A DNA stretch of 64,000 nt from Sphingopyxis sp. L1A2A (GTDB lineage Bacteria; Pseudomonadota; Alphaproteobacteria; Sphingomonadales; Sphingomonadaceae), in assembly GCF_005502465.1 (NCBI RefSeq), contig NZ_SCOT01000001.1, forward strand, positions 124,001 through 188,000. The letters run 5' to 3'. Under the pieces are notes generated by a model, which saw only the letters and a program-made list of their open reading frames with translations, was not told the origin of the DNA and ran no database searches. The stretch's first letter is position 1; every line of letters starts with the position of its first letter. Shown piece by piece: positions 6,797 to 33,289 of the stretch. The position numbers and the translations under genes are program-made.

Positions 6797-6810
6797 GTCA
6801 AAAAAATGCC
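6797..6810. promoter_or_regulatory. Putative activator box upstream of fliE
   Basis: GTCAAAAAAATGCC differs in only two positions from the perfect palindrome GTCAAAAAACTGAC found between flgB and flgA. It also resembles the Pseudomonas FleQ site GTCANTAAATTGAC. Its centre is about 95 bases before the predicted fliE transcription start, a normal distance for a sigma-54 enhancer. The assignment is inferred. Confidence 0.5.
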
Positions 6811-6873
6811 GAAGCGGCCCCGGCGCCGCGATGCACTCCACTCAATCCCCTGAAAAACAGGCATTAAATCTTT

Positions 6874-6889
6874 TGGCATGGCCTTTGCA
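6874..6889 (+). promoter_or_regulatory. Sigma-54 promoter of the fliE operon
   Basis: TGGCATGGCCTTTGCA carries GG at 6875-6876 and GC at 6887-6888, exactly 12 bases apart, as in the consensus TTGGCACG-N4-TTGCA. Transcription would start near 6899, about 40 bases before the fliE start codon. Confidence 0.85.
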
Positions 6890-6938
6890 TTGTTCTTTGC
6901 GTGCGGCGCACCGCTGCGCACAGGACGGATGAAAAGCA

Positions 6939-7292
6939 ATGAGCACGATTGACCCGAGCCGGCTGCTGCAGATGCGCAGTTCGATCCTCAATCAGAACCA
7001 GGCGCTGCAACGCGCCGCCGGTCGCGGCGGCATTGGTGGCACCGAGGGCGGCGTCGACGGCGCTGGCGGAACCCCAGATTTCGGCGCGGCGATCAACAAT
7101 GCGCTGCAACAGGTCAATGCCCAGCAGTCCAAGGCGAGCGAGATCACCGAAGCCTATGAGCGCGGCGATACCCACGACATCGTCAGCGTGATGATCGAAC
7201 GGCAGAAAGCCTCGCTCGGCTTTGAAACCACGTTGCAGGTGCGCAACAAGCTGCTGTCCGCCTACCGCGACATCATGAACATGCCGGTCTAA
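6939..7292 (+). CDS. fliE: FliE, MS-ring/rod junction protein
   Basis: This 117-residue protein joins the MS ring (FliF) to the proximal rod. The C-terminal half, with FGAAINNALQQVNAQQSKAS, a SVMIERQKASLGFETTLQVRNKLLSAY helix region and a closing DIMNMPV, is diagnostic of FliE. The N-terminal part is Gly-rich and poorly conserved. It is the first gene of a long operon that runs without large gaps to flhB. It is transcribed from the sigma-54 promoter just upstream and diverges from fliC. Confidence 0.95.
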   Translation: MSTIDPSRLLQMRSSILNQNQALQRAAGRGGIGGTEGGVDGAGGTPDFGAAINNALQQVNAQQSKASEITEAYERGDTHDIVSVMIERQKASLGFETTLQVRNKLLSAYRDIMNMPV

Positions 7293-7295
7293 CCC

Positions 7296-8957
7296 ATGGC
7301 CGAGACCCAGATCCTCACCCCCGTTGACGACGGCCACGCGAACCGCCTGCCCGCCCCGGCGTTCGGCGGCCGGCTGGCGCCGTTCACCGGCTTCGTCCGT
7401 CAGCCGGCGGTCCAGCGCGCGCTGCCCGCGATCGCCATGACGTCGGCGATCGGCATCGCCGCGCTCGCCTGGTTCACCATGCAGTCGGCGCCGCAGGCGC
7501 AATTGTTCGCCGGGCTTGACGACAGCGACAAGTCGGCGGTCGCCGAGGCGCTGCAGACGCAGGGCATCGCGCACAGCATCGATGCGAGCACCGGCGCGCT
7601 GACGGTCGACGCCGACAAATTGCATCAGGCGCGCATCGCGCTGGCCGGACAGGGCCTGCCCAAGGCGGCGCCGAGCGGCGACAGCCTGATCGCCGCTCTG
7701 CCCATGGGGTCGAGCCGCGCGATCGAGGGCGAAGCGCTGCGTTCGGCACGCGAAGCCGACCTGGCGCGCACCATTGAAACGATCGACGCGGTCAAGAGCG
7801 CGCGGGTCCATGTCGCCGCCGCCGAACCCAGCCTGTTCGTCCGCGAGGATAAACCCTCGACCGCGTCGGTGATGCTGACGCTGCAGAACGGCCGTTCGCT
7901 CAGCGATGGTCAGGTGCAGGCGATCCGCTTCCTCGTCGCCTCGTCGGTGCCCGGGATGAATGCCGATCAGGTGTCGGTGATCGACCAGCGCGGCGCGCTG
8001 TTGTCCGACACCGCATCGGGCAGCGACATGAAGGCCTTCCAGTTGCAGGTGCAGGTCGAAGACCGCTTCCGCCGCGCGCTCGACACCTTGCTCGGCCCGA
8101 TGCTCGGCGTCGGCAATTATAGCGTCGAGGTCCACGCCGACGTCGACATGTCCGAAAGCCAGGCGACGCGCGAGAGCTTTCCCAAAGACGATCGCGCGAT
8201 GACCAGCGAACAGATTACCCGCACGGTCAGCGGCGCCGGCAGCCCCCCCGCCGCCGTCGGCATCCCCGGCGCGCTGTCGAACCAGCCGCCGCAGGCGACC
8301 ACGGTCACCGCCAACGCCCCGACCGCCACCCCGGCGCCCGGCGCGGCGCCCGAAACCGCGAGCAACGAAAACGCCGCGCGCGCCTTTGAAGTCGGCCGCG
8401 AAATTTCGGTCACCCACTCGCCGCAGGGCAAACTGCGCCGGGTCTCGGTCGCCGTCGCACTCAATCAGGGCAAGAAAGCGCTGACCCAGGCCGACATGGC
8501 CAAGATCGACAGCCTGGTCAAAGGCGCGATCGGTTTCGATGCAACGCGCGGCGATCAGGTGGCGATCAGCCAGCGTCCCTTCGTCCAGGTCGAAGCCGCC
8601 GAGCCCGCCTTTTACGACCAGGGTTGGTTTCTGCCGCTGGTCAAGCAGGTCGGGGCGATCTTCGCCGCGCTGCTCGCCTTTCTGTTCATCGGTCGCCCGC
8701 TGATCCGCGCCGCCAAGGCCCGCGCCGCTGAACGCGCCGAACGCAATGCCGCGCTGGAGGAAACGCTGCTCGCCGCCACCGACGGACGCCCGGCGCTCGC
8801 CAGCCCCGCCGCGGGGCGCGAAATCACCCTCGAGATGATCGAACAGGCGCCGAGCTATGAAACCCGCGCCAATCTGGTCCGCGCCTTTGTCCGCCAGGAT
8901 TCGGCGCGCGCCGCGCTCGTCGTCCGCCAGCTGATGCAGGAGGGTGCCCGTGGCTGA
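7296..8957 (+). CDS. fliF: FliF, flagellar MS-ring protein
   Basis: This 553-residue membrane protein forms the MS ring in the inner membrane, the base for rotor and export gate. A first transmembrane segment lies near residues 45-65 (ALPAIAMTSAIGIAALAWF). The YscJ/FliF ring-building domain follows, then an Ala/Pro-rich linker near residues 330-355. A second transmembrane segment near residues 445-467 precedes the cytosolic tail that binds FliG. The gene begins three bases after fliE and its 3' end overlaps fliG by eight bases. Confidence 0.95.
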   Translation: MAETQILTPVDDGHANRLPAPAFGGRLAPFTGFVRQPAVQRALPAIAMTSAIGIAALAWFTMQSAPQAQLFAGLDDSDKSAVAEALQTQGIAHSIDASTGALTVDADKLHQARIALAGQGLPKAAPSGDSLIAALPMGSSRAIEGEALRSAREADLARTIETIDAVKSARVHVAAAEPSLFVREDKPSTASVMLTLQNGRSLSDGQVQAIRFLVASSVPGMNADQVSVIDQRGALLSDTASGSDMKAFQLQVQVEDRFRRALDTLLGPMLGVGNYSVEVHADVDMSESQATRESFPKDDRAMTSEQITRTVSGAGSPPAAVGIPGALSNQPPQATTVTANAPTATPAPGAAPETASNENAARAFEVGREISVTHSPQGKLRRVSVAVALNQGKKALTQADMAKIDSLVKGAIGFDATRGDQVAISQRPFVQVEAAEPAFYDQGWFLPLVKQVGAIFAALLAFLFIGRPLIRAAKARAAERAERNAALEETLLAATDGRPALASPAAGREITLEMIEQAPSYETRANLVRAFVRQDSARAALVVRQLMQEGARG

Positions 8958-9981
8958 CGCCGCCGAAACCATGGCGCCGTCCGCCCGGCCCGCGATCGAA
9001 GGGTCGGCCGCCGCCGCCATCCTGCTGATGCTGCTCGACGAAAGCGAAGCCGCGACGATCCTGAAACATCTTGGCCCCGACGAAGTGCGCCAGCTGGCCA
9101 AGGCGATGTTCGACACCGCCAACGCCAGCGAACAGCAGATCGGCCAGGCGCTCGATCGCTTCGTCGTGCGCAGCCGCGATGTCAGCGCGCTTGCCATCGG
9201 CGCCGACGTCCGCATCCGCACCGTGATGAACCAGGCGGTCGGCAACGTCCGCGCCGACAATATCCTGGCCGCGGTCGCGCCGCAGCGCAGCGCCGCGTCG
9301 CTCGAAATCCTCCGCTGGATGGACGTCGAGGCGATCAGCGGTCTGCTCGCGGCCGAACATCCGCAGGTCGGCGCGCTGATCCTTTCGGTGCTGATCCCCG
9401 ACGTCGCCGCGCGCGCTATCGAAACGCTCGACGAAATCCTGCAGGCCGATCTGGTGCTGCGCGCCGCGATGCTGACGTCGGTTCCTGCGGCGGCGATCGA
9501 GGATCTCGAATCGGTCCTCGCCAGCGCCAATGTCGACGGCCAGCGCGTCGCCAAACAGACGATCGGCGGCCCCAGCGACGTCGCCAAGATCATGAAGAAA
9601 ATGCCCAAATCATTGAGCGAGCGGACGATCCGCGCGCTCAAAAAGACCGACAAGCTGCTCGCCCAGGCGATCGAGGAAGAGATGTTCATCTTTGAAAATC
9701 TGCGCGACCTCGACAAGAAAAGCCTCAGCACGGTGTTGCGCTCGGTCGATGCCGCCGAGCTCGCGGTCGCGCTCAAGGGTGCCGACGACGAGATGGTCGA
9801 CCTGTGCCTCGCCACCATGTCGCAGCGCGCGTCGGAAACGATCCGCGACGAAATGGCCGAAATGACGATGGTCAAGCGCGCCGACGTCGACGATGCGCAA
9901 AAGAGCGTGATGACGATCGTGCGCCAGATGACGGCGTCGGGCGAAATCATGATCGCGGGCGGCGGCGACGATTATGTCTGA
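8950..9981 (+). CDS. fliG: FliG, rotor switch protein
   Basis: This 343-residue C-ring protein binds FliF through its N domain and transmits torque from MotA through its C domain. Family landmarks are the middle-domain EHPQVGALILSVL and the C-terminal charged helix region MFIFENLRDLDKKSLSTVLR. GTG at 8950 is chosen as start because AGGAGGG at 8938-8944 is spaced five bases before it; a second GTG at 8944 would lie on that ribosome binding site. The gene overlaps fliF and fliH by eight bases each. Confidence 0.95.
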   Translation: MADAAETMAPSARPAIEGSAAAAILLMLLDESEAATILKHLGPDEVRQLAKAMFDTANASEQQIGQALDRFVVRSRDVSALAIGADVRIRTVMNQAVGNVRADNILAAVAPQRSAASLEILRWMDVEAISGLLAAEHPQVGALILSVLIPDVAARAIETLDEILQADLVLRAAMLTSVPAAAIEDLESVLASANVDGQRVAKQTIGGPSDVAKIMKKMPKSLSERTIRALKKTDKLLAQAIEEEMFIFENLRDLDKKSLSTVLRSVDAAELAVALKGADDEMVDLCLATMSQRASETIRDEMAEMTMVKRADVDDAQKSVMTIVRQMTASGEIMIAGGGDDYV

Positions 9982-10573
9982 TCGCACCACCGAAACCGGT
10001 TTTGCCCCGGTCACGCTCGCCGCGGCGATGGCGCGCAGTAGCGGCTTTCGCCCGCTGGCCTTTTCCGGCAACGCGCGCACGCCGCAGCCTGCCGACGGCA
10101 GCGCCGCCGAACTCGATCTCGACGACCCCTTTGCCCGCGGCCTGGCCGAAGGGCAGCGCATCGCCGAGGCCGCCTATGTCGCCGAACGCCACCAGCTGCT
10201 CGCCCTGCTCGCGGGCGCCGAGGCGCTGCAGGATGAACCGAGCGAGGAACTCGCGCAGTTGATCGCGCGCACCGTCGAACGGCTGGTGCACCAGATCGTC
10301 GCCAGCGCCCCGATCGACGCCGCCTGGCTGCAGGCGCAGGCCGAAACCGCCGCGGCGCTGGTCGCCGACGCCGACAAGGCGCGCACCCTGTGGGTCCATC
10401 CCGACGATGCCGCGCTGCTGACCGATTGTCCGTTGCCGCTGGCGCTCGAAAGCGACGCGGCGATGATGCGCGGCACGGTGCGGATCGAAACCTCGACCGG
10501 CTGGATCGAACATGGCCGCGCCGTCTATCTGGACGAATTGCACGCGGCGCTGGGCGAAGGATCGCCCGCATGA
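9974..10573 (+). CDS. fliH: FliH-like export ATPase regulator
   Basis: This 199-residue protein lies between fliG and fliI. In the flagellar export apparatus FliH holds and regulates the FliI ATPase and tethers it to the C ring. The sequence has an acidic/Ala-rich N half including DPFARGLAEGQRIAEAAY, the usual FliH GxxxG-like helix, and a C half with the SctL/FliH fold (WVHPDDAALL, near residues 135-145). Sequence conservation is low in this family, so position supports the call as much as motifs. It overlaps fliI as ATGA. Confidence 0.85.
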   Translation: MSDRTTETGFAPVTLAAAMARSSGFRPLAFSGNARTPQPADGSAAELDLDDPFARGLAEGQRIAEAAYVAERHQLLALLAGAEALQDEPSEELAQLIARTVERLVHQIVASAPIDAAWLQAQAETAAALVADADKARTLWVHPDDAALLTDCPLPLALESDAAMMRGTVRIETSTGWIEHGRAVYLDELHAALGEGSPA

Positions 10574-11901
10574 CCCGCCGCCTCGCCCTGTCGGCGCAGC
10601 AATTGCTCGACCCGATCGACCTGACGAACGCCAGCCCGCGCCGCGTCGGCACGCTTGTGTCGCACGAAGGCATCATGCTCGAAGTGTCGGGTTTCCCGCA
10701 GCCGCTGGGCAGCAACGTCCGCATCAAGTCGGCGAACAATGATTATGTTTACGGCGAGGTCGTCGGTTTCCGCGGCCAGAGCAGCCTGGTCCTGCCGTTC
10801 GACACCAACATGCCGCTGGTCACCGGCGCCCCGGTCGAGCCGCATGGCGCCAGTTCGATGGTCGCGTGCGGCAAGGCGCTGCTCGGCCGCATCATCGACG
10901 CGCAGGGCAATGCGCTCGACGGCCGCCCGCCGGTCAAATCGCAGTTTCAATGGCCGCTCGCCGGGCGCAAGGTCAATCCGCTGCGCCGCGGCCGCGTCAC
11001 CCGCCCGCTCAACATGGGGGTGCGCGCGATCAACGGCCTGCTCACCGTCGGCGAAGGCCAGCGCGTCGCGATCATCGCCGGCTCGGGGGTCGGCAAATCG
11101 GTCCTGATGGGCCAGATGATCGCGGGCACCGAATGCGACGTCATCGTCGTCGGCCTGATCGGCGAACGCAGCCGCGAGGTCAGCGATTTCGTCGAGACCA
11201 AGCTGCCCCCCGAAGTGCGCAAGAAGGCGGTCGTCGTCGCGGTTCCCGCCGACCATCCGCCGCTGCTCCGCCTGCGCGCCGCGATGCGCGCCACCGCAAT
11301 CGCCGAGGCGTTCCGCGCCGACGGCAAAAAGGTGCTGCTGCTGATCGACAGCCTGACCCGCGTCGCCCATGCCCAGCGCGAGATCGGACTGACGCTGGGC
11401 GAACCGCCGACGATGAAAGGCTATCCGCCGTCGGTGTTCGCGCTGATCCCCTCGCTGTGCGAACGCGCCGGGATCGACCGCGAAACCGGCGGGTCGATCA
11501 CCGCACTCTACACCGTCCTCGCCGATGGCGGCGACATCGACGATCCGGTCGTCGATTCGGCCCGCGCCATTGTCGACGGCCATATCATCCTGTCGCGCAC
11601 CCTGGCCGAACAGGGCGTCTATCCCGCGATCGACGTCGCCCGGTCGCTGTCGCGCACGATGGTCGATTCGGTCGATCCCGACCATGCCGCCGCCGCCGCC
11701 CGCTTTCGCCAGCTGTGGTCGGCGTATGAAGAGAATCGCGATCTGATGCTGATGGGCGCTTATGTCGCTGGCGGCGATCCGGTGCTCGACGAAGCCATCG
11801 CCCGCCGCGCCGACCAGCTCGCCTTCGTGACCCAGCCCGCCAAGGCGCAGGTCGATTTCGACATTTCCCGCCAAACCCTGATTGAAGGATATTCCGCATG
11901 A
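10570..11901 (+). CDS. fliI: FliI, flagellar export ATPase
   Basis: This 443-residue ATPase is related to F1-beta and energises unfolding and release of export substrates. Walker A is AGSGVGKS at residues 170-177 and Walker B is VLLLID at 255-260. The T3SS-ATPase signature region near PPSVFALIPSLCERAG is also present. The ATG at 10570 overlaps the fliH stop codon. An in-frame extension further upstream lies inside fliH and is a shadow. Confidence 0.95.
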   Translation: MTRRLALSAQQLLDPIDLTNASPRRVGTLVSHEGIMLEVSGFPQPLGSNVRIKSANNDYVYGEVVGFRGQSSLVLPFDTNMPLVTGAPVEPHGASSMVACGKALLGRIIDAQGNALDGRPPVKSQFQWPLAGRKVNPLRRGRVTRPLNMGVRAINGLLTVGEGQRVAIIAGSGVGKSVLMGQMIAGTECDVIVVGLIGERSREVSDFVETKLPPEVRKKAVVVAVPADHPPLLRLRAAMRATAIAEAFRADGKKVLLLIDSLTRVAHAQREIGLTLGEPPTMKGYPPSVFALIPSLCERAGIDRETGGSITALYTVLADGGDIDDPVVDSARAIVDGHIILSRTLAEQGVYPAIDVARSLSRTMVDSVDPDHAAAAARFRQLWSAYEENRDLMLMGAYVAGGDPVLDEAIARRADQLAFVTQPAKAQVDFDISRQTLIEGYSA

Positions 11902-12344
11902 CCGCCCGCACCGCACGCCGCAAACGTATCATCCGCGTGCGCACCGTCGAACATCAGATGGCAGAGGCCAATCTGGCGCGGGCCAATGGCGAACTCGCCA
12001 GCCTGGTCGAGCTCGCCAGGCGCCTCGAAACACTGCGCGTCGATCTGGCGATGGCCAAAGGCGCGGTCGCCGGCCGCGCGCTCAACACGATCGGCGAACT
12101 GTCGATGCGGCTCGACATCGCGCAGGAAAATCTGACCGCGCCGCTGGTGAATGCCAGCGCGCGCCGCGACCATGCCGGGGCGCTGGCGCAAAGCGCCATG
12201 GTCAAGGAAGAATCGGCCATCCGCCTTTACGACCGCAGCCGCAAATCGGCCGAAGCCGAAGCCGAGCGCCGCAGCGACGCCAACCGCCCGCACCGCCCGC
12301 GCGGCGGCATGCGCCTGCGCCTGATCGAAGGCGGCGCGGCGTGA
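11898..12344 (+). CDS. fliJ: FliJ-like export chaperone
   Basis: This 148-residue, charged, helical protein lies between fliI and fliK, where FliJ is expected. FliJ is a coiled-coil protein that inserts into the FliI hexamer like the gamma subunit of F1 and interacts with FlhA. Residues 15-115 are long amphipathic helices (VEHQMAEANLARANGELASL and onward), and the C-terminal tail is basic. The call depends on gene order and coiled-coil character. Start and stop overlap both neighbours. Confidence 0.75.
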   Translation: MTARTARRKRIIRVRTVEHQMAEANLARANGELASLVELARRLETLRVDLAMAKGAVAGRALNTIGELSMRLDIAQENLTAPLVNASARRDHAGALAQSAMVKEESAIRLYDRSRKSAEAEAERRSDANRPHRPRGGMRLRLIEGGAA

Positions 12345-13726
12345 TGAGCACGGCGTCCCTTCCCATGCCGCAGGCTTCGACCCCCGCGGGCTTCGCCGCC
12401 TTCCTCAGCACGATCGGCCAGACACCGACCGGCGGCGGTGAAGACAGTGGTTTCGAGCAGCTGCTCGCCGCAGCGCCGATGCCGGCCGCCGCGCCGGTCA
12501 AAGCCGCGACACCAATCGCCGTTGCGGGCAGCCCCGCGATGCCGACCGTCACCGCCCCGGTCGCTGTTGCGACGCCGGTTGCGACCCCTGTGGCGGCGCC
12601 GTCCACGACCATCGATGCGCCCGCCGTGACCGCAAAGTCGGCCGAACCCGGCACCGCCATCGCCGCTGACCCCGATGCAGCCGCCGCATCGGCGGCAAAG
12701 CTGCTGATCGCGGTCAATGGCAGCGCCCCGGCGCCGCAGCCGAAAACCGCCCGAGTCGTCGAACCGAAAACGGGCACCGATACCGAAACCGTCAGCGCGC
12801 CCGATACCGGCGCCAGCCCCATGATCACCGCTCCCGCCGAACCGGCCGCGCCAGTCGCCAGCACCGCGGTCATCACGCCTGACCCGATGGCGGCGGCGCC
12901 CGCCGTCGTCGCCGCGATGCCCGTCATCGCCGCGATCATCGCCCCGGTTGCCGGCAAGCCGACCAAGGCGAGCGAACCGGCCGCGATCGCGACCGGCGAG
13001 GCTGCCGCCGCCCCCGCTGCCGACCTGCCGCCGGCGACATCGCTGGCCAGCGGGCCGCGCCCCGTCGCTGCCAAGCCCGGCGCCCCGGCCAGCGACCCCG
13101 CCGCGATCACCGCGCCGGTGACGATCATGTCGCGCCCCACGCCGCCGGCCGCGCCGCGCGCGACCGCCGGAACCGAAGCGCAGCTCGCCAAGCCTGTCGA
13201 AGCCGCACCGTCGATGACGATCCAATTTGCCCAGCCGGCCGCTCCGGGCGCCGCCATCGCCGCGAGTGTCGCGCAACCGATGATCGTCACCGAACGCGTG
13301 CTCGACCTTGCCAGCGATGGCGCCTGGATCGACCAGCTTGCGCACGACATTGCCGCGACCAGATCGGACAGCGGCGACATCAGTTTTCGCCTGATGCCGC
13401 GCCACCTCGGCCGCCTCGACGTCGCGATGCTGGTGGGTGACGAGGGCGTGTCGCTGAAGCTCGACACCCAACATGAGGCGGCGGCGACGATCGTCACCGC
13501 CGCGCAGGGCCGCCTGGTCGAAGACCTGCGCCAGCAGGGCGTGCGCGTGACCGGCAGCGAAGTGACCTGCACCCCGGGGGACAATGGACGCCAGATGCAG
13601 GGCCAGTCGCAGGGTCAGGGCCGCGCCGCCGCGCAGGACGTCAGCCATCTGATCGAAACTGTTACCGAGCGCGTCAAAGCGCGCGATCCTGAAGAGGCCG
13701 CCGACCGCCGCGGCCGCTTTGCCTGA
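12344..13726 (+). CDS. fliK: FliK, hook-length control protein
   Basis: This 460-residue secreted ruler protein sets hook length and triggers the FlhB substrate switch. Most of residues 40-330 is an Ala/Pro/Val/Thr-rich low-complexity ruler with runs such as VATPVATPVAAP. The conserved hook-length domain begins near residue 340 (ISFRLMPRHLGRLDVAML), followed by a Gln/Gly-rich tail. ATG at 12344 touches the fliJ stop. The frame is also open further upstream inside fliJ, but that part is not FliK-like. Confidence 0.9.
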   Translation: MSTASLPMPQASTPAGFAAFLSTIGQTPTGGGEDSGFEQLLAAAPMPAAAPVKAATPIAVAGSPAMPTVTAPVAVATPVATPVAAPSTTIDAPAVTAKSAEPGTAIAADPDAAAASAAKLLIAVNGSAPAPQPKTARVVEPKTGTDTETVSAPDTGASPMITAPAEPAAPVASTAVITPDPMAAAPAVVAAMPVIAAIIAPVAGKPTKASEPAAIATGEAAAAPAADLPPATSLASGPRPVAAKPGAPASDPAAITAPVTIMSRPTPPAAPRATAGTEAQLAKPVEAAPSMTIQFAQPAAPGAAIAASVAQPMIVTERVLDLASDGAWIDQLAHDIAATRSDSGDISFRLMPRHLGRLDVAMLVGDEGVSLKLDTQHEAAATIVTAAQGRLVEDLRQQGVRVTGSEVTCTPGDNGRQMQGQSQGQGRAAAQDVSHLIETVTERVKARDPEEAADRRGRFA

Positions 13727-13743
13727 CCATAGAGGGTATCACG

Positions 13744-15609: not shown

Positions 15610-15887
15610 TGTTCGAATATATCCTCCGCCTGCTCATCCTGCTGCCGCTCGTCGGCGGCATGGCGTGGGGCAGCCTGTGGCTGTGGAAGCGCGTCCAGAT
15701 GGGGGTGCCGCTCGTCGGCGGGGCCGCGAAAACGCGCGCCGTCGAGATGGTCGATGTGCTGCCGCTCGGCCCGGGATCGAAGCTCGCGGTGGTCGAATTC
15801 GCCGGACAGCGGATTCTGGTCGCGGTGTCGCGGAACGGCATCACCCGCATCGCCGACGACAATCAGGGCGACTTCCATGCAGATTGA
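15609..15887 (+). CDS. fliO: FliO, export gate assembly protein
   Basis: This 92-residue protein has one N-terminal transmembrane helix (YILRLLILLPLVGGMAWGSL) and a small soluble FliO domain (VEMVDVLPLGPGSKLAVVEF). FliO is a scaffold for FliP ring assembly. The ORF overlaps fliN and fliP, matching the standard fliN-fliO-fliP order. Confidence 0.85.
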   Translation: MFEYILRLLILLPLVGGMAWGSLWLWKRVQMGVPLVGGAAKTRAVEMVDVLPLGPGSKLAVVEFAGQRILVAVSRNGITRIADDNQGDFHAD

Positions 15888-20866: not shown

Positions 20867-21925
20867 TCAGGCGGCCTGCTGTTGAACCCCATATTTGCGC
20901 ATCTTTTCGATCAGCGTCGTGCGCTTCAGCGTCAACAGGCGCGCGGCTTCGGAAATGATGCCGTCAGCCAGGTCGAGGGCGACGTGGATCTGTTCGAGCT
21001 CGATCGTTTCGATCTCGCGCTTGAGGTCGATCGGGCGGCCCGGCGCCGGCGCCTTGCTGAACGGCATGGCAGGCGTGGTGTCGTCCGCGCTGGCCTCGAC
21101 CGCGGCAAAGCTGCTGGGGACAGCCTGCCGCGGCCGGGGCGCTGCGGTGGGGTTCAAAAGCATGGCGACATCGTCGGCGCCCAGCGTTTCGCCGCCGTGC
21201 AGCACGCTGGCGCGTTCGACGAAATTCCTGAGTTCGCGGACATTGCCCGGCCAGCGGTGCTGCATCAGCAATTCCATCGCGTCGGCGTCAAAGCGGCACT
21301 TGGCCTCGCCCGGCATCTTGCGCTGGAAATGGCGGATGAGGGCGGGAATATCCCCGACGCGGCTGGCCAGGCTGGGGACCTGGAGCACAACCACGCCGAG
21401 CCGGAAGAACAGGTCTTCGCGGAATTTGCCATCGGCGATCGCGACGCCGAGATCCTGGTGGGTGGCCGAAATGACGCGGACGTCGACGGCCTTCACATCG
21501 CTGCTGCCGACACGGACGATCATCCGTTCCTCGAGCACGCGGAGCAGTTTGACCTGCATGTCGAACCGCATGTCGCCGATTTCGTCGAGGAAAAGCGTGC
21601 CGCCCTCGCTCGCTTCGAAATGGCCGATGCGGCGGGCATGGGCGCCGGTGAAGCTGCCCTTTTCATGCCCGAAGAGTTCGGATTCAATGAGGTCGCCGGG
21701 GATCGCGCCGCAGTTGATCGCGGAAAAGGCCTTGCCCGACCGGACGCCTTCATCGTGGATCGCGCGGGCCACCAGTTCCTTGCCCGAACCCGACGGGCCG
21801 CAGAGCATGACCGATGCGTTCGACCGCGCCACGCGGCGGATCATGTCGCGCAGCTGCGCGGCGGCCGCGCTGCTGCCGACGATCAGCGTCTCAAGCGCTG
21901 CACTGCTGTTCTGCCCCACGGTCAT
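20867..21925 (-). CDS. Sigma-54-dependent flagellar activator (FleQ/FlbD type, no receiver domain)
   Basis: This 352-residue enhancer-binding protein should remodel sigma-54 RNA polymerase at the flagellar -24/-12 promoters of this island. The AAA+ domain has Walker A GPSGSGKE (43-50), GSFTGA (90-95, usually GAFTGA) and Walker B GGTLFLDEIGD (108-118). The C terminus has a Fis-type helix-turn-helix (ARLLTLKRTTLIEKMRKYG) resembling FleQ. There is almost nothing before the AAA+ domain, so no receiver domain. ATG 21925 is preferred because GGTGGAG sits eight bases before it. A longer frame to 22024 exists, but its extra 33 codons have AT-richer, atypical usage. Confidence 0.88.
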   Translation of the reverse strand: MTVGQNSSAALETLIVGSSAAAAQLRDMIRRVARSNASVMLCGPSGSGKELVARAIHDEGVRSGKAFSAINCGAIPGDLIESELFGHEKGSFTGAHARRIGHFEASEGGTLFLDEIGDMRFDMQVKLLRVLEERMIVRVGSSDVKAVDVRVISATHQDLGVAIADGKFREDLFFRLGVVVLQVPSLASRVGDIPALIRHFQRKMPGEAKCRFDADAMELLMQHRWPGNVRELRNFVERASVLHGGETLGADDVAMLLNPTAAPRPRQAVPSSFAAVEASADDTTPAMPFSKAPAPGRPIDLKREIETIELEQIHVALDLADGIISEAARLLTLKRTTLIEKMRKYGVQQQAA

Positions 21926-22107
21926 TTCGGTCTCCACCGCGCCCCCCAATTCGGCGCCTTTTCGATGGACCCAGAGATTGACGAAAGTGGTAAACAAAAG
22001 ATTATCCACCTTGGCATAACCCATTCAAAATAAAGGATTATTGCCAGATTGGATGTATTTTCCGCGCAATCGCGTCGTTAACGATCCGATATGCTGCCAA
22101 ACTGGCA

Positions 22108-24747: not shown

Positions 24748-24760
24748 TGTCCGCTCTCCC

Positions 24761-27518: not shown

Positions 27519-27532
27519 GGATAAAATCCTTT

Positions 27533-28201
27533 TCAGAACGGGCTGATGATCGCGAAGAAGCGCTGCAGCCAGCCTTGCTGGCTGGCGCGCGCGATCTCGC
27601 CCTTGCCGACGTACCGGATGTTGGCGTCGGCGACGCGGGTCGACAGGATGCGGTTGTCGGGGCTGATGTCCATCGCGCGGACGATGCCCGAAATCTGGAC
27701 GCGTTCGTCGCCGCGGTTGAGCGTGAGCAGCTTTTCGCCGCGCACCAGCATCGTGCCGTTGGGATAGACCGCAGCGATGGTCACGCTGACCTCACCCGAC
27801 AGCGCGTTCGATTGCGACGCGTCGCCCTTGCCCTTGAACTGCTGGCCGCCGCCCATCGCGATGTCGCTGGGGTTGAACAGCGACAGCGGCCCGGTCGATG
27901 GCGGCGTCAGGCCGATATTGCCGTCGCGCTGCGTGCCCGCGGCGTTGCTTTTGGTCGCGGCGGTGCGCTCGACAAGCTGGATGGTCAGGATGTCGCCGAC
28001 CTGCCCGGCGCGTCCGCCCGACGTCAGCGGCACATAGCTGCCCTGAAAGATCGAGCCATTGCCGGGCAGCGGCGCCGGGGGGACCGGCGTCGCCGCAGCA
28101 AAGGCGTCGGCGGGCAATTTGTCCTTCGCCGCCGCGCCAACCGGCACGAGCGCGAGGGCAAAGGCCACACTGACCGACAGATTAGAGCGTCTGCGCGGCA
28201 T
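27533..28201 (-). CDS. flgH: FlgH, outer-membrane L-ring protein without lipobox cysteine
   Basis: This 222-residue protein forms the L ring. FlgH motifs are clear: NGSIFQGSYVPL, AGQVGDILTIQLVE, ILSTRVADANIRYVGKGEI and the ending GWLQRFFAIISPF. Most FlgH proteins are lipoproteins with a cysteine at the signal cleavage site. Here the signal (VAFALALVPVGAAAKDK) has no cysteine, and the whole protein has none. It would be processed by signal peptidase I and lack a lipid anchor. Its start overlaps flgG by 20 bases. Confidence 0.93.
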   Translation of the reverse strand: MPRRRSNLSVSVAFALALVPVGAAAKDKLPADAFAAATPVPPAPLPGNGSIFQGSYVPLTSGGRAGQVGDILTIQLVERTAATKSNAAGTQRDGNIGLTPPSTGPLSLFNPSDIAMGGGQQFKGKGDASQSNALSGEVSVTIAAVYPNGTMLVRGEKLLTLNRGDERVQISGIVRAMDISPDNRILSTRVADANIRYVGKGEIARASQQGWLQRFFAIISPF

Positions 28202-28967
28202 TTTTCATCATCTCGTCGGTGGCCTGGATCATCTTGGAATTGACCTCATAGGCGCGCTGGGTCTCGATCATGTCGACGAGTTCCTCAACGACATTGACGT
28301 TCGATCCCTCGAGCATCCCGCCGCGCAAGCTGCCGCGGCCTTCCTGCCCGGCAGCGCCGACCTGCGGCGCGCCCGATGCGGCGGTTTCGACCAGCATATT
28401 GTCGCCGATCGCCTGCAAGCCCGCCGGATTGGCAAAGCGTGCGAGTTCGATGCGACCAAGTTCGGTCAGCGTCCCGTCGGCGCCGGTCGCCGACACGGTG
28501 CCGTCGGCGCCGATCGACACATTGGTGCTGTCCTCGGGAATCTGGATCGCGGGGGTCAGCGGCTTGCCGTCCGAGGTCACGATCGTGCCATCGGGCGAGC
28601 GGCCGAAATTGCCGGCGCGGGTATAGCCGGTCCGCCCATCGGGCATTTCGACCTGAAAATATCCGGCGCCGTCGATCGCCATGTCGAGCGCGTTGCCGGT
28701 GGTGGCGAACGTCCCCTGCGTATCGATCCGCGACGTGCCGCCCAGCGACACGCCGGTGCCGAGGTTAAGCCCGGTCGCATAACGGTTTTCAGCTGACGAC
28801 GGCGCACCCGGCGCGGTCATCATCTGATAGCTCAACGTTTCAAAGCTGGCGCGGTCGCGCTTGAAGCCCGTGGTGTTCACGTTGGCGAGGTTGTTGGCGA
28901 TCACCTGCATCCGGAAGCCCTGGGCATCCAGACCGGTTCGTGCGACGTGCAAGGCACCGAAGCTCAT
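28182..28967 (-). CDS. flgG: FlgG, distal rod protein
   Basis: This 261-residue distal rod protein has the N-terminal motif TGLDAQGFRMQVIANNLANVNTTGFKR and the C-terminal VNVVEELVDMIETQRAYEVNSK, at the usual FlgG length. It lies between flgF and flgH in the standard order. Confidence 0.96.
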   Translation of the reverse strand: MSFGALHVARTGLDAQGFRMQVIANNLANVNTTGFKRDRASFETLSYQMMTAPGAPSSAENRYATGLNLGTGVSLGGTSRIDTQGTFATTGNALDMAIDGAGYFQVEMPDGRTGYTRAGNFGRSPDGTIVTSDGKPLTPAIQIPEDSTNVSIGADGTVSATGADGTLTELGRIELARFANPAGLQAIGDNMLVETAASGAPQVGAAGQEGRGSLRGGMLEGSNVNVVEELVDMIETQRAYEVNSKMIQATDEMMKNAAQTL

Positions 28968-28979
28968 GTCATAGTCTCC

Positions 28980-29723
28980 TTAACGGGGAAGCTGCATCAA
29001 ATTGGCGGTCGCGCTGTCCATGTCGCGCACGTCGCTGACCAGCTTGAGCTGGGTATCCCAGCTGCGGCTCGCCTCGATCATGTCGACCAGCGCGGTGGTG
29101 GCGGCGACGTTCGATCCTTCGATCGACCGGGTGATCAGCCGCGCTTCGGGATCGTCGGGCAAAATGCCCTCGCCCTTGACGCGGAATAGCCCGTCCAACC
29201 CCTTGGCAATGTCGGACCCGGTCGGGGTCGCCAGCCGCAGCCGGTCGACTTCCTGCGGATTTTCGGCATCACCGCCGGCGGGGACGATCCACACCCGCCC
29301 CTCGACGTCGATCGTGATCGCGTCAGCGGGGGGGATCGTCACCGGGCCCTGACCACCCTGCACGGGGTGGCCGTCGCCGGTGGTCAGCAGCCCGCTGGGC
29401 GATACCTGCAGGTCGCCGCGCCGCGTATAGGCCTCGGTGCCGTCCTTTGCCTGCACCACGAGCAGCGCGTCGCCCTGCACCGCGATGTCCAGATCGCGCC
29501 CGGTCGCGGTGACAGTGCCGGCGCGCATGTCGGCGCCGATCACTTCTTCCGACGCCATGGCGCGCGCGCCCGTCCCGCTGCCGTTCAGCCACAGCGCCTG
29601 CGCCTCGGCCATGTCGGCGCGAAACCCGGGCGTCTGCGCGTTCGCCAGATTGTTGGCAATCGCCGTCTGGCGGGCCGTGCTGCCCCGCATCGCGGTAAGG
29701 CTGGTATAGATGAGTTTGTCCAT
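28980..29723 (-). CDS. flgF: FlgF, proximal rod protein
   Basis: This 247-residue rod protein has the family N terminus (SLTAMRGSTARQTAIANNLANAQTPGFRAD) and C terminus (GSNVAATTALVDMIEASRSWDTQLK). It lies 12 bases before flgG in the same operon and 35 bases after flgE. Confidence 0.95.
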   Translation of the reverse strand: MDKLIYTSLTAMRGSTARQTAIANNLANAQTPGFRADMAEAQALWLNGSGTGARAMASEEVIGADMRAGTVTATGRDLDIAVQGDALLVVQAKDGTEAYTRRGDLQVSPSGLLTTGDGHPVQGGQGPVTIPPADAITIDVEGRVWIVPAGGDAENPQEVDRLRLATPTGSDIAKGLDGLFRVKGEGILPDDPEARLITRSIEGSNVAATTALVDMIEASRSWDTQLKLVSDVRDMDSATANLMQLPR

Positions 29724-29758
29724 CTGAAGGCTCCCGGCAGGCGGCTAAATGCGCTGGA

Positions 29759-30586
29759 TCAGCGCATGTTGATGATGGTTTGCGACAGCTGCGACGCGCC
29801 CTCGATCGCCTTGGCGTTCGCCTGGAAATTGCGCTGTGCACCGATCAGCATCACCAGTTCTTCGGTGATATCGACGTTCGAGCGTTCGAGTGCGCCCGAC
29901 CGGATCGCGCCCATCGGGCCGTTGGTCGCGGCGTCGATCGTCGGCGCGCCGCTTTCGCCCGACGACTGCCAATGCGCGTCGCCGACGGGCCGCAGCCCCT
30001 CCATCGCCGGGAAGGTCGCCATCGCAACCTTGCCCAGAACCTGCGCTTCGCCATTGGCAAAGGTGGCAGAGACCAGCCCGTCGAGGCCGATCGAGACATT
30101 GACCAGCTGCGCGGTGGGATCGCTCGGCGCGCCCGGCGGCAGGACAAAATCAAACGCCCCGGCCAGCGTGTTGTTGGTGACGTTGCCGTTCGCATCGACG
30201 GGCAGCAGTTGCAGCTTCTGCCCCGTCGAATCGATCACATTGCGGTCGGGGGTCGCGGTGAACGCGCCGTTGCGGGTGTAGGTCACCTGCTCGCGCGGCG
30301 GATCGCCCTTCACCACGAACATTCCTTCACCGACGATCGCCATGTCGAGCGTCTTTTCGCTCGATTCATACGATCCCTGGGTAAACTGCTGGGTGATCCC
30401 GTTGAGGCGCTGGCCCTGACCCGCGATCATCTTGGTCGACTGGGTCGGCGACGAGGCGAAAATGTCGCCGAACTGCGCCTTGCTGCGCTTGAACCCGATC
30501 GATCCCGCGTTGGCGATGTTGTTCGAGATGACCGACATGTCGGTCTGGGCGCCCTTGAGGCCCGAAAGCGAGGTATAGAATGACAT
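29759..30586 (-). CDS. flgE: FlgE, short hook protein
   Basis: This 275-residue protein has the flagellar hook-family ends MSFYTSLSGLKGAQTDMSVISNNIANAGSIGFKRS and VDITEELVMLIGAQRNFQANAKAI. Position after flgD and before flgF identifies it as FlgE. Typical hook proteins have 400 or more residues; here the middle is little larger than in the rod protein FlgG, so the outer hook domain is minimal or missing. The hook must therefore be thin or differently packed. Confidence 0.9.
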   Translation of the reverse strand: MSFYTSLSGLKGAQTDMSVISNNIANAGSIGFKRSKAQFGDIFASSPTQSTKMIAGQGQRLNGITQQFTQGSYESSEKTLDMAIVGEGMFVVKGDPPREQVTYTRNGAFTATPDRNVIDSTGQKLQLLPVDANGNVTNNTLAGAFDFVLPPGAPSDPTAQLVNVSIGLDGLVSATFANGEAQVLGKVAMATFPAMEGLRPVGDAHWQSSGESGAPTIDAATNGPMGAIRSGALERSNVDITEELVMLIGAQRNFQANAKAIEGASQLSQTIINMR

Positions 30587-30599
30587 GGCTTTATCCTTC

Positions 30600-30899
30600 T
30601 TAGGTGGTGGGGGTTGTGGGCGCCGGAGTGGCGGCCTTGATGTCCTTGAGCAGCTGGGTCTGCGCTATGAGCTGCTCCGAGATTTTCTGCAGCGTCGTGT
30701 TGGTTTCGCTGATCCCGGCGAGGCTGGAAAACTGCGCCATCTGCGCGACCATCTGCTGGTTATCGACGGGGTTGAACGGATCCTGCTGCGACAGCTGCGC
30801 GGTCATCAGGCGCAGGAAATCGCTCTGCCCCATCTGCTGCCCGGCGCCCTTCGGCTGGAGCACGACATTGTTGGCGTTGATGACGTTGTTGACGGCCAT
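30600..30899 (-). CDS. flgD: FlgD, minimal hook-cap/scaffold protein
   Basis: This 99-residue protein has only the conserved N-terminal FlgD core (MGQSDFLRLMTAQLSQQDPFNPVDNQQMVAQMAQFSSL). The Tudor and Ig-like C-terminal domains of the roughly 230-residue enteric FlgD are absent. The frame ends in a Thr/Pro tail (TPAPTTPTT), and flgE starts 13 bases later, so no lost coding remnant is visible. It starts two bases after the flgC stop. Confidence 0.9.
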   Translation of the reverse strand: MAVNNVINANNVVLQPKGAGQQMGQSDFLRLMTAQLSQQDPFNPVDNQQMVAQMAQFSSLAGISETNTTLQKISEQLIAQTQLLKDIKAATPAPTTPTT

Positions 30900-30900
30900 T

Positions 30901-31311
30901 TTATTGTCCCATCCTGAGGGTTTCGTTGATCAGGCCCTTGGCGGTTTCGAGGACCTGGACATTGTTCTGATATTGGCGCGCGGTCTCGACCATCTCGACC
31001 ATCTCCGCGGCGCTATCGACCGCCGCCTGCCAGACGTTGCCGTCCTTGTCGGCGAGCGGGTTCGACGGATCGTGGCGTTTCGACGGCGCCATTTTCGACG
31101 TCGTCACCTGATCGACCTGGACCGTCGCGCGGCCCTGGCTGTCCATCACGGTACGGAACACCGGTTTGAGCGAGCGAAAGGCTTCGGCTTCGCTGCCCGC
31201 GATCGTCCCGGCGTTGGCCAGGTTCGACGCGGTGGTGTTAAGCCGGACGAGCTGCGCCGACATCGCGCGGCCGCTGATGTCGAAGACGGAGAAATTGCTG
31301 GCCATCGTCAT
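30901..31311 (-). CDS. flgC: FlgC, proximal rod protein
   Basis: This 136-residue rod protein has the N-terminal motif ISGRAMSAQLVRLNTTASNLANAGTIAG and the C-terminal MVEMVETARQYQNNVQVLE. It overlaps flgB by four bases and is the second gene of the flgB operon. Confidence 0.95.
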   Translation of the reverse strand: MTMASNFSVFDISGRAMSAQLVRLNTTASNLANAGTIAGSEAEAFRSLKPVFRTVMDSQGRATVQVDQVTTSKMAPSKRHDPSNPLADKDGNVWQAAVDSAAEMVEMVETARQYQNNVQVLETAKGLINETLRMGQ

Positions 31312-31661
31312 TCGCCCTTGATCGCACGGGTCAGCGTGTTGACGCGGCCGCTGAGGAACGAAAGGCTGGACCGGTAGGCGAGTGCGTTTTCGGCGAACGC
31401 CGTCTGCTCGGTCGCCATTTCGACGGTGTTGCCGTCGAGCGACGCCTGTACCGGCACGCGATACGCAATCGCGCCCTCGATAGCATTGGCGGTCGAGCCG
31501 CCCTGCTGCGCCAGGTCGAGCGCTTTCGAAAAATCGAGGTCGCGCGCCTTATATCCGGGCGTCGCGGCATTGGCGATGTTCGACGCGAGCATCATCATGC
31601 GCTGGCTGCGCAGCTGAAGCGCCGTCGCGTGCAGACCAAAGAGTTTCTCGGATGCCATCAT
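31308..31661 (-). CDS. flgB: FlgB, proximal rod protein
   Basis: This 117-residue rod protein begins with MMASEKLFGLHATALQL and carries RMMMLASNIANAATPGYKARDLDF, the FlgB signature. ATG 31661 is chosen because AAGGA lies five bases upstream. The open frame reaches 31757, but that part crosses the sigma-54 promoter at 31734-31750 and cannot be translated from it. First gene of the flgB-C-D-E-F-G-H-I-J-K-L operon. Confidence 0.94.
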   Translation of the reverse strand: MMASEKLFGLHATALQLRSQRMMMLASNIANAATPGYKARDLDFSKALDLAQQGGSTANAIEGAIAYRVPVQASLDGNTVEMATEQTAFAENALAYRSSLSFLSGRVNTLTRAIKGE

Positions 31662-31733
31662 CAAATTCCTTCTTTCGCCGCTGGCCGGGTCCGGTCGCTG
31701 CCGGCGCCGACGCGCGGAAAACACAAAGAACGA

Positions 31734-31750
31734 TGCAATCGCCGTGCCAA
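31734..31750 (-). promoter_or_regulatory. Sigma-54 promoter of the flgB operon
   Basis: The minus strand reads TTGGCACGGCGATTGCA, a perfect match to TTGGCACG-N4-TTGCA with 12 bases between GG and GC. Transcription would start near 31723, about 62 bases before the flgB ATG. Confidence 0.92.
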
Positions 31751-31813
31751 AAGGCATTTATCTATTATTTTCAGTTATTTAAATATGGTCGCCGTCATCG
31801 CTTTGGGGTATCA

Positions 31814-31827
31814 GTCAAAAAACTGAC
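31814..31827. promoter_or_regulatory. FleQ-like activator box shared by flgB and flgA
   Basis: GTCAAAAAACTGAC has perfect GTCA/TGAC half-sites six bases apart and resembles the Pseudomonas FleQ consensus GTCANTAAATTGAC. It lies between the two divergent sigma-54 promoters, about 97 bases from the flgB start site and 76 from the flgA start site. Related boxes precede fliE and the transglycosylase operon. Confidence 0.6.
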
Positions 31828-31869
31828 GACTCCACGTCGCGGCGGCGCCAATCGCGCCGCAAACCGCGA

Positions 31870-31886
31870 CTGGCACGCTTCCTGCA
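31870..31886 (+). promoter_or_regulatory. Sigma-54 promoter of flgA
   Basis: CTGGCACGCTTCCTGCA has GG at 31872-31873 and GC at 31884-31885, 12 bases apart. Transcription would start near 31897, just before the ribosome binding site of flgA. Confidence 0.85.
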
Positions 31887-31925
31887 AAATGGCGGGTGAC
31901 CATTTTGGACCGAAGGAGATGGATC

Positions 31926-32468
31926 GTGTCCCATGCTATCACCACCCGCCTGGCCGTTGGCCTCGCCGCCTATTCCGCTGCCTGTACCGCCGCCGCCAAT
32001 CCCGCATATGCCCAGCAGGCGACCGAGGATTGGCAGACAATCGACGTGCTGACCGCGATGGTCGCCAGCGCGCTGGGCCGCACTGCGACCCCGGTCGATC
32101 GCCGCATCAAGCTGGCGCGCTGTCCCGAACAGGCATCGGTGACCGCGATCGACGCCAATGCGCTCGCGGTGCGCTGCGCCTCGCTCGGCTGGCGCCTGCG
32201 CGTCCCCCTGAGCACACCGGCGGCGGGACCAGCGAACGCGGCGCCGACGGCGGCGAGCTTTACCCGCCCCGCCACCGGCGCCCCCGTCATCCGCCGCGGC
32301 GACAATGTCCGGGTGACGATCGATACCGAAAGTTTTTCGATCAGCTATGCTGCGGTCGCCGCCGAGGATGGCCGGATCGGCGAGATGATCGCGCTGCGCG
32401 GCAACGACGCCAAATCGTCGCTGAGCGCGACCGTGATCGGTCCCGGCCGCGCCCGCCTCGACGACTGA
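31926..32468 (+). CDS. flgA: FlgA, P-ring assembly chaperone
   Basis: This 180-residue periplasmic protein helps FlgI polymerise into the P ring. A signal peptide ends near ANPAYAQQA. The C-terminal SAF-like domain includes PVIRRGDNVRVTIDTESFSISYAAVA and GEMIALRGNDAKSSLSATVIG. GTG 31926 is chosen because AAGGAG lies seven bases upstream and because an ATG at 31896 would precede the predicted transcription start. It diverges from flgB and ends at a strong terminator. Confidence 0.9.
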   Translation: MSHAITTRLAVGLAAYSAACTAAANPAYAQQATEDWQTIDVLTAMVASALGRTATPVDRRIKLARCPEQASVTAIDANALAVRCASLGWRLRVPLSTPAAGPANAAPTAASFTRPATGAPVIRRGDNVRVTIDTESFSISYAAVAAEDGRIGEMIALRGNDAKSSLSATVIGPGRARLDD

Positions 32469-32498
32469 CCCCCACCTTTCCTTACCCTGACCAGCCCC

Positions 32499-32553
32499 TG
32501 GCCCGGTGACTGTCGGCTTTCCGACGTCACCGGGCCATTCTTTTGTCTTTTTT
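32499..32553 (+). terminator. Rho-independent terminator of flgA
   Basis: A long hairpin pairs TGGCCCGGTGAC (32499-32510) with 32526-32537 and stacks on an inner GTCGG-CTTT-CCGAC stem. A T-rich run (TTCTTTTGTCTTTTTT) follows at 32538-32553. Confidence 0.9.
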
Positions 32554-32567
32554 GCGCCGCGCCGCCT

Positions 32568-32593
32568 TAATCCCCCGCGGCGGCGTCCGTTAA
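32568..32593 (+). promoter_or_regulatory. FliA-type promoter of flgM
   Basis: TAAT at 32568-32571 and TCCGTTAA at 32586-32593 are separated by 14 bases, the same geometry as before fliC and fliD. The start site would lie near 32600, about 47 bases before the flgM ATG and after the flgA terminator. Confidence 0.6.
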
Positions 32594-32646
32594 AGCCTTC
32601 GTGAACCGCGTCGTCACTTTTCTGACGGTACCGGATGGAGGCAGAT

Positions 32647-32946
32647 ATGTCGGGTGACAGCAAGATCGGACCCGTCGGCGGTATCGTCCGCACGACTCCG
32701 CTGCGCAGCGTCGCCAGCGATGCGGCAACGTCGGCCCGGGCGCCTGCGCCGCTGCCAGCGGCGGCGGACGGCTTGCCCGCAGCGCGCCTGATCCGCCTTG
32801 CGGGCGGGCTTGCCAATCAGGCGCCGCCGGTCGATGTCGGCCGCGTCGCATCGCTGCGCAGCGCGATTGCCAGCGGCAGCTATGGCGTCCACCCCGCGAT
32901 CATCGCCAGCGCCATGATCGATTTCCACACCGGCGGGTCGGAATGA
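32647..32946 (+). CDS. flgM: FlgM, anti-sigma-28 factor
   Basis: This 99-residue protein should bind FliA and be exported once the hook is finished, freeing sigma-28 for the late genes. The C-terminal half (VDVGRVASLRSAIASGSYGVHPAIIASAMIDF) is the FlgM sigma-binding motif with its typical I/L-GxYxV-PxxIAxxMI pattern. ATG 32647 is used because GGAGG lies a few bases upstream; an ATG at 32635 has no such site. It overlaps the next gene as ATGA. Confidence 0.9.
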   Translation: MSGDSKIGPVGGIVRTTPLRSVASDAATSARAPAPLPAAADGLPAARLIRLAGGLANQAPPVDVGRVASLRSAIASGSYGVHPAIIASAMIDFHTGGSE

Positions 32947-33242
32947 TGCTCGAAGAAGTCCAATTGCGGCTCAATGCGTTGGTCGGTGCGCTCGACGGGC
33001 ATGACGCCGGGGCGATCATCGCGGCGACCGAAGAGCTGGCGACCGCGGTGATCCTGTTTCGCGGCGCGGCCATCCCCAGGGGCAGCGAACATCGCACCCA
33101 GGTCTTGATCGGCAAGGCGCTGCGCGAGCTCGAAGCCGCCGCAATCCGCGTCAACGTCCTCAAGGACTGGACGCGTCAGCGGATTGACAGGAACCACGAC
33201 ATCCGCGGCACTCACCAGCGCGGAGCCGCGTTAAACTACTGA
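32943..33242 (+). CDS. FlgN-like export chaperone candidate
   Basis: This 99-residue, mostly helical protein has no clear motif. It is translationally coupled to flgM (four-base overlap), the usual place of flgN, whose product chaperones FlgK and FlgL. Length and helical pattern (LEEVQLRLNALVGALDGHDAGAIIAATEELATAV) fit a small FlgN. The assignment is from position, so FlgN is a proposal and the gene could encode another small flagellar protein. Confidence 0.6.
   Translation: MMLEEVQLRLNALVGALDGHDAGAIIAATEELATAVILFRGAAIPRGSEHRTQVLIGKALRELEAAAIRVNVLKDWTRQRIDRNHDIRGTHQRGAALNY
33175..33188. promoter_or_regulatory. FleQ-like activator box upstream of the transglycosylase-flhA-fliA operon
   Basis: GTCAGCGGATTGAC has both perfect half-sites, six bases apart. 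Its centre is about 119 bases before the predicted sigma-54 start at 33301. It lies inside the 3' part of the preceding FlgN-like gene. Confidence 0.5.
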
Positions 33243-33274
33243 TTATTCTATAGGTTTCTGCCATTAACCGTAAA

Positions 33275-33289
33275 TGGCACGATGATTGC
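33275..33289 (+). promoter_or_regulatory. Sigma-54 promoter of the transglycosylase-flhA-fliA operon
   Basis: TGGCACGATGATTGC has GG at 33276-33277 and GC at 33288-33289, exactly 12 bases apart. Transcription would begin near 33301, which excludes an upstream in-frame start at 33296 for the next gene. Confidence 0.85.

Follow-up and report, generated by a model that had tools for sequence, protein, structure and literature searches.

Conserved FleQ-type boxes at the sigma-54 flagellar promoters of Sphingopyxis: candidate enhancer sites for a receiver-less activator, and a contrast with relatives that carry a second activator

Sphingopyxis is a bacterium of water and soil. We analyzed the flagellar island in a 64,000-nucleotide stretch of the Sphingopyxis sp. 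L1A2A genome (hereafter the window) and found that three boxes of the GTCA-N6-TGAC type lie upstream of its four sigma-54 promoters, at spacings that are conserved across the genus. Our data strongly suggest that these boxes are enhancer sites for a FleQ-like, receiver-less sigma-54 activator encoded at 20867-21925 on the minus strand, whose binding very probably drives the four promoters directly. A dimer of the activator's Fis-type helix-turn-helix (HTH) would bind GTCA-N6-YGAC, and from there its AAA+ domain would reach over to the sigma-54 polymerase and open the -24/-12 promoter close by, in this way directly switching on fliE, flgB, flgA and the transglycosylase-flhA-fliA operon (here the flhA operon). 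Among the activator-bearing genomes of other relatives that were scanned, boxes at flgB were found only in those typed as lacking a second sigma-54 activator, here called EBP2.

The initial annotation of this DNA had proposed four sigma-54 promoters and three boxes, and all seven elements can be read in the sequence. The promoters precede the fliE operon (6874-6888, plus strand; TGGCATGGCCTTTGC, 1 mismatch), the flgB operon (31735-31749, minus strand; TGGCACGGCGATTGC, exact), flgA (31871-31885, plus strand; TGGCACGCTTCCTGC, 1 mismatch) and the flhA operon (33275-33289, plus strand; TGGCACGATGATTGC, exact). The fliE promoter has its box at 6797-6810 (plus strand; GTCAAAAAAATGCC), the divergent flgB and flgA promoters have one in common at 31814-31827 (no strand assigned; GTCAAAAAACTGAC), and the flhA-operon box at 33175-33188 (plus strand; GTCAGCGGATTGAC) falls within the 3' end of flgN. 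Measured from the box start, the first T of TGG lies 77 base pairs (bp) away at fliE, 78 bp at flgB, 57 bp at flgA and 100 bp at the flhA operon. The form of a FleQ box, an inverted repeat GTCA...TGAC upstream of a sigma-54 promoter, is present with exact halves at flgB/flgA and at the flhA operon; at fliE the palindrome is incomplete, the right half being degenerate (YGCC). An A/T-rich centre is found in the fliE and flgB/flgA boxes and not in the flhA-operon box. The published consensus words for FleQ are GTCAaAAAAtTGAC in Pseudomonas putida and GTCaNTAAAtTGAC in Pseudomonas aeruginosa (PMC6120874), and the flgB/flgA box is one position off the P. putida word, which bears out the proposed likeness to the FleQ box.

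Our search of the genus covered 60 genomes, including that of the window, and recovered the activator in 58 of them at E 1e-76. Forty of the 59 other genomes were taken and, together with the window, make up the 41 compared here; two of these lack fliE in the fetched stretch. Gene order is the same in all 40. A box was called in the promoter scan when it had at most one mismatch and lay 40-150 bp upstream. Boxes were found at 41/41 flgB promoters, 40/40 flgA promoters (the remaining genome has no flgA promoter call), 41/41 flhA operons and 22/39 fliE promoters, while dinucleotide shuffling gave means of 0.755-0.94 promoters. The flgB and flgA counts agree with the suggestion that a single box serves this divergent pair. 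Furthermore, the spacing between box and -24 element is fixed although the distance from the -24 element to the gene varies (up to 41 genomes). The flhA-operon box is exact in 41/41 at -99 to -101, with the sequence GTCAG(A/C)GGATTGAC, and the flgA box lies at -57 or -56 in 40/40, always starting with GTCA and ending in TGAC or CGAC. Distances at flgB form a class near -78 (24 genomes) and a class near -89 (16 genomes), which differ by about one helical turn, with one genome at -100. At fliE, a sigma-54 site with at most one mismatch is present in all 39 genomes that have the gene in the fetched DNA, and the box GTCAAAAA lies exactly 77 bp from the -24 T in 38 of them; the words at this position are GTCAAAAAAACGCC (n = 18), GTCAAAAAAATGCC (n = 16), and in the remaining five genomes three variants (n = 4) or a word without GTCA (n = 1). 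The boxes hold across the genus at fixed spacing, so the proposal survives the comparison with close relatives.

Among named Sphingopyxis loci, which are largely from the same species, boxes within one mismatch occur at 38/38 flgB and flgA promoters and at 35/35 flhA promoters. Single loci of Sphingosinicella, Croceicoccus and Sphingorhabdus had no box at flgB or flgA in the one-mismatch scan, and flgB promoters of Idiomarina gave a one-mismatch match in 2 of 11. The regulatory code that was proposed for a sphingomonad flagellar regulon stands for Sphingopyxis and allied lineages; it does not extend to sphingomonads at large, many of which have another layout.

The box on its own is weakly specific. 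Exact GTCAN6TGAC occurs at 100 sites in the 3.7-Mb genome, and the window contains 37 sites with at most one mismatch compared with a shuffle mean of 15.9. Since the box alone is common, conservation and position must decide. A composite pattern, in which a box with right half YGMC stands 57-101 bp before TGGCAY-N6-TGC, has five matches in the genome, four of which are the island promoters (fliE, flgB, flgA and the flhA operon); the fifth (contig C11:72134) falls inside open frames, and the reversed pattern, used as a control, has no match in the genome. This pattern was fitted after the sites were known, and it thus speaks to specificity and is no independent test. An exact box that the initial annotation did not list, at 31330-31343 within the flgB coding sequence, was set aside, being exact in just 17 of 40 relatives.

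The activator reads as 352 amino acids from a conserved ATG. A mechanical call extends the open reading frame to 22024, and the sequence above 21925 is a conserved leader that reads as non-coding. Pfam models PF00158 (Sigma54_activat), PF25601 (AAA_lid_14) and PF02954 (HTH_8) match above cut-off; no receiver-type domain was found in Pfam, and 14 residues precede the AAA+ match, in keeping with the earlier statement that the protein has no receiver domain. Its best match by sequence (phmmer) among solved structures is P. aeruginosa FleQ (8p53, E 2.3e-85), with both domains spanned. The recognition helix of the window protein is RTTLIEKMRKYG, compared with RTTLVEKMRKYG in FleQ, and every genus sequence read (30 of 40) has the same helix; across 27 aligned activators of other genera (of 31), RT(T/S)(L/F) is kept and positions further on vary. 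Of the FleQ residues named as contacts for cyclic di-GMP (c-di-GMP; PMC10723142), R185 is kept in the window protein and in 30/30 genus sequences. E330 is replaced by H in 30/30 genus sequences, and 3 of the 30 retain R334. The window protein has K in place of R334 and A in place of R151; R144 aligns to a gap (T in the pairwise alignment with FleQ). We predict from these residues that the activator would not respond to c-di-GMP. Since a receiver-like domain and most c-di-GMP contacts are missing, we do not class the protein as a canonical FleQ.

Box occurrence follows that of the activator, with activator absence defined as no match at the search cut-offs. In seven flagellate family genomes that lack the activator, sigma-54 promoters were called at flgB (7), flgA (4) and flhA (7), and none of these 18 has a box. 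A further 39 activator-less genomes, taken irrespective of EBP2, gave boxes at 0/39 flgB, 1/31 flgA and 1/36 flhA promoters (2/106), both with one mismatch. Overall, no exact box was found at the 124 promoters of flagellate relatives without the activator, and the two one-mismatch matches are the only ones, as expected if the boxes track the activator.

We considered whether another regulator, such as a different enhancer-binding protein or a Fis/Lrp-like factor, binds the boxes while the FleQ-like protein acts elsewhere. The genome of the window does encode at least six more enhancer-binding proteins, namely an NtrC-like protein (just under cut-off), NtrX, a PEP-CTERM-box response regulator, PspF and two without assignment. 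Their HTH ends, however, are unlike that of FleQ, the box matches the published FleQ consensus words (PMC6120874), and no exact box turned up at the promoters of genomes lacking the FleQ-like gene; we regard this alternative as very unlikely. For the fliE box we considered a different role, namely that it is an A-tract or UP element of a divergent, sigma-28-like flagellin promoter. This box has a degenerate right half and stands 7-8 bp from a conserved TTAAG that we assign to the flagellin promoter. Yet it is the distance to the flagellin element that varies (8 bp in 23 genomes, 7 bp in 15), whereas the distance to -24 is exactly 77 in all 38 fitted genomes (1 of 39 was unfitted), and an A-tract needs no GTCA, which is kept in 38/39; this role is therefore unlikely. 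Conservation of the flhA-operon box might be ascribed solely to the FlgN protein, since the box is within coding sequence and its five residues, RQRID, are invariant in the 41 genomes. Codons 78-82 of flgN, however, read CGT CAG (A/C)GG ATT GAC in 41/41, with synonymous change only at the free centre of the box (AGG in 28, CGG in 13), whereas most other invariant flgN residues do vary synonymously. CGT and ATT are used in 41/41 even though, in flgN, the transglycosylase gene and flhA of the same genomes, CGT makes up 198 of 2494 Arg codons and ATT 322 of 2838 Ile codons. Because synonymous sites are frozen with these minority codons, the DNA itself, beyond the protein, appears to be under constraint, and a purely protein-based explanation is extremely unlikely.

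Two points count against the activator as the protein that acts through all three boxes. The fliE boxes of the genus fall within one mismatch in only 22/39 and are exact in none, with a poor right half, and the dimer formed by the receiver domain of FleQ is called essential in Pseudomonas (PMC10723142), so the window protein must do without it. We nevertheless hold direct activation through the boxes to be very probable.

We found that many relatives have a second sigma-54 activator. The first set of other genera consisted of 31 activator-positive genomes that we chose for having FlgB, FliE and FlhA matches; about ten further genomes went unused. EBP2 lies directly upstream of fliE in 21 of these 31. 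It measures 331-438 amino acids where the open reading frame was read, its HTH contains ISERTLRY, and no receiver domain was found in the two proteins tested. EBP2 lies between a sigma-54 promoter and fliE, with the promoter before EBP2 in 21/21, and 17 of the 21 EBP2-fliE promoters have boxes (10 exact; up to three boxes), compared with a shuffle mean of 0.56 and a maximum of 5 at one mismatch or fewer. Boxes are absent from all 34 flgB and flgA promoters of these 21 genomes and present at 3 of 20 flhA promoters. At flgB, the first set thus has boxes in 0/19 genomes with EBP2 versus 7/10 without it (1 exact). The other promoters of the 10 genomes without EBP2 have boxes at 2/7 (flgA), 4/10 (flhA) and 3/10 (fliE), with shuffle means of 0.22-0.34. 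The seven genomes lacking the FleQ-like protein have EBP2 as well, and no sigma-54 site with at most one mismatch was found before it there (0/7). The window's own genome has no accepted EBP2 match; its best match scores 212 bits versus at least 314 bits for five EBP2 genes in the same search. As a separate observation, exact boxes stand in tandem, two or three of them within about 100 bp, at three EBP2-fliE promoters (L166, L168 and L171); such arrays in some EBP2 genera contrast with the single boxes of Sphingopyxis.

A second set of fresh genomes was typed for EBP2 and then scanned after the idea had been set down. It comprised 47 of 53 genomes with a FlgB match; G148, G251, G428, G317, G344 (EBP2 match) and G438 (no EBP2 match, FlgB below cut-off) were left out, and of those scanned, G218 yielded no flgB promoter. 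Boxes at flgB were found in 13/15 genomes without EBP2 (none exact) versus 0/31 with EBP2. Without and with EBP2, respectively, the counts were 6/9 versus 0/14 at flgA and 7/8 versus 1/9 at flhA; the single fliE promoter scanned had no box (0/1). Pooled over both sets, beside the 41 genus genomes, flgB boxes occur in 20/25 genomes without EBP2 versus 0/50 with it (Fisher test, 7e-14, ignoring kinship).

The contrast may mean that circuits have switched between having one activator and having two. In the two-activator relatives, the FleQ-like protein would mainly activate expression of EBP2, whose gene directly precedes fliE, and flgB and flgA would presumably be driven by EBP2. Lineages without EBP2, including Sphingopyxis, mostly have boxes at the hook-basal-body promoters themselves. 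EBP2 may have been lost rather than gained. The association between EBP2 and boxes is strong and the independent events are few. The FlhA tree of the first set has 50 rows, 12 from the genus and 38 others, and was built by a quick method, with a number of long branches; its best version requires at least 5 changes of EBP2 state.

Several findings weigh against the switch. Three independent pairs on starred branches gave two for it, none against and one tie, which is short of significance. Outside the 41 genomes, flgB boxes in genomes without EBP2 nearly all have one mismatch (exact in 1/10 and 0/15), fliE boxes occur in only 3 of the 10 other-genus genomes without EBP2, and the shuffle control covers the first set alone and not the second-set counts. 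Five genomes without EBP2 have no flgB box (G112, G085, G010, G406 and G161); G406 has a box at its flhA promoter despite the boxless flgB, and the activator of G161, a member of the same genus group as the window, is divergent (53%). Two of the 20 genomes with flgB boxes, G255 and G285, were typed as lacking EBP2 despite matches to it of 250 and 244 bits at 45-46% identity, counted as other activators; the weakest accepted EBP2 scores 259 bits at 53% identity, close to these.

Shared ancestry might account for the relation if a few clades have both traits and loss of EBP2 and gain of boxes are causally unlinked. The small number of starred contrasts and the five boxless genomes speak for this, whereas the 0/50 versus 20/25 split, the scanning of the second set after the idea was set down and the repeated changes of EBP2 state speak for a switch. 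On balance, we consider shared ancestry alone possible, though on the unlikely side. A fuller account would be that repeated rewiring in Sphingomonadaceae has moved the flagellar circuit between a cascade, in which the FleQ-like protein acts on EBP2-fliE and EBP2 on the hook genes, and a one-activator circuit, with FleQ boxes newly arisen at the hook-basal-body and flhA promoters themselves. The lone activator, having neither receiver domain nor c-di-GMP site, would then be controlled through its own expression; we give this account about even chances.

The leader of the activator gene (21926-22107) has genus-conserved blocks, namely a TGCCA-N3-TGGCA palindrome, a second CCA-N3-TGGCAAT, GTTTACCA and TTTC-TCAAT motifs, and these are probably the input of another regulator on the master activator. 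Self-control through an own box was dropped, as no box was seen in the leader alignment.

Caulobacter FlbD is an alphaproteobacterial flagellar sigma-54 activator; the window protein differs from it, scoring 278.7 bits with the FlbD NCBIfam model, below the cut-off of 750. Like the window protein, Pseudomonas FleQ combines an AAA+ domain with a Fis-type HTH, has nearly the same recognition helix and a 14-bp GTCA...TGAC box, and its flagellar operons typically have a single upstream box. The window activator differs in its lack of the receiver-like N-terminal domain and in keeping R185 and not R144, R151, E330 or R334; in addition, the middle genes of Pseudomonas need a second system, FleSR (PMC3930126). 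Rhodobacter (Cereibacter) sphaeroides FleQ drives an operon of a second activator and fliEFGHIJ (PMC7277832), as in the EBP2 relatives. That second activator, FleT, has no DNA-binding domain (PMC11999139), whereas EBP2 has one, and Sphingopyxis has no second activator of such kind. FleQ and its box, as well as the FleQ-FleSR and FleQ-FleT-fliE cascades, are thus already known from these accounts, and what is new here is the difference between circuits with one activator and circuits with two.

In Sphingopyxis granuli, SGRAN_4107 was named putative fleQ, and a run of 39 adjacent flagellar genes, among them one for a putative sigma-54 activator, is jointly repressed in anoxia (PMC7713065, PMC7083833, PMC6472365); the available parts of these accounts describe no box, regulon or domain loss. 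We recognized no description of a flagellar activator box in sphingomonads in the open literature searched, a body that leaves most subscription papers outside. Our data provide a simple cis-code for flagellar control that can be read genome-wide, in a group whose flagellar regulation is little covered by the literature searched, and a natural series (no FleQ-like protein, FleQ-like protein with second activator, FleQ-like protein alone) for following gain and loss of binding sites. Chromatin immunoprecipitation sequencing in Pseudomonas fluorescens and P. putida could not define a single FleQ consensus (PMC6120874), whereas dozens of aligned sites at fixed spacing are available here. The receiver-less protein is also a test of which FleQ domains activation needs.

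The genes downstream of the promoters were assigned as follows. The products of fliE (6939-7292, plus strand; TIGR00205), flgB, the first gene of its operon (31308-31658, minus strand; TIGR01396, with 31308-31640 tested), flhA (34156-36279, plus strand; TIGR01398) and fliA, encoding sigma-28 (36269-37015, plus strand; TIGR02479, with 36311-37015 tested), match above cut-off, and fliA comes directly after flhA. The flgA assignment (31926-32468, plus strand) relies on position and synteny, as TIGR03170 matches below its cut-off. The flgN-like gene (32943-33242, plus strand) has no NCBIfam match and is named from its place after flgM; it is present in 40/40 genus genomes. The first gene of the flhA operon (33335-34159, plus strand) has one sub-cut-off NCBIfam match and retains the transglycosylase-like label of the initial annotation.

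Upstream of the flhA-operon box, a weaker second element, GTCAA-N5-TGAA, lies 25 bp away in many relatives; it is at 33150-33163 in the window and stronger in relatives, and G112 has exact boxes at both positions. At three uncultured Sphingomonadaceae loci (L222, L224 and L226), the flhA-operon -24 element is preceded at a distance of 147-148 bp by GTCAATAAATTGAC, which matches the P. aeruginosa FleQ consensus perfectly.

An exact box word absent from the initial annotation lies in the flgM leader (32613-32626), within a palindrome at 32611-32628 (plus strand). It was set aside as a fourth box: no sigma-54 site was found near it, and both arms change together. Each of its six pairs is kept in 38-40 of 41 genomes, with two pairs changed on both sides. 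Because the arms covary in relatives, this suggests an RNA hairpin acting on flgM, although FleQ may also have a role there; no Rfam match was found in 31500-33500 at E up to 1. In the flgM leader (32560-32646), we read a sigma-28-like CTTAATC...CCGTTAA, followed by the 18-nucleotide palindrome just before the Shine-Dalgarno sequence.

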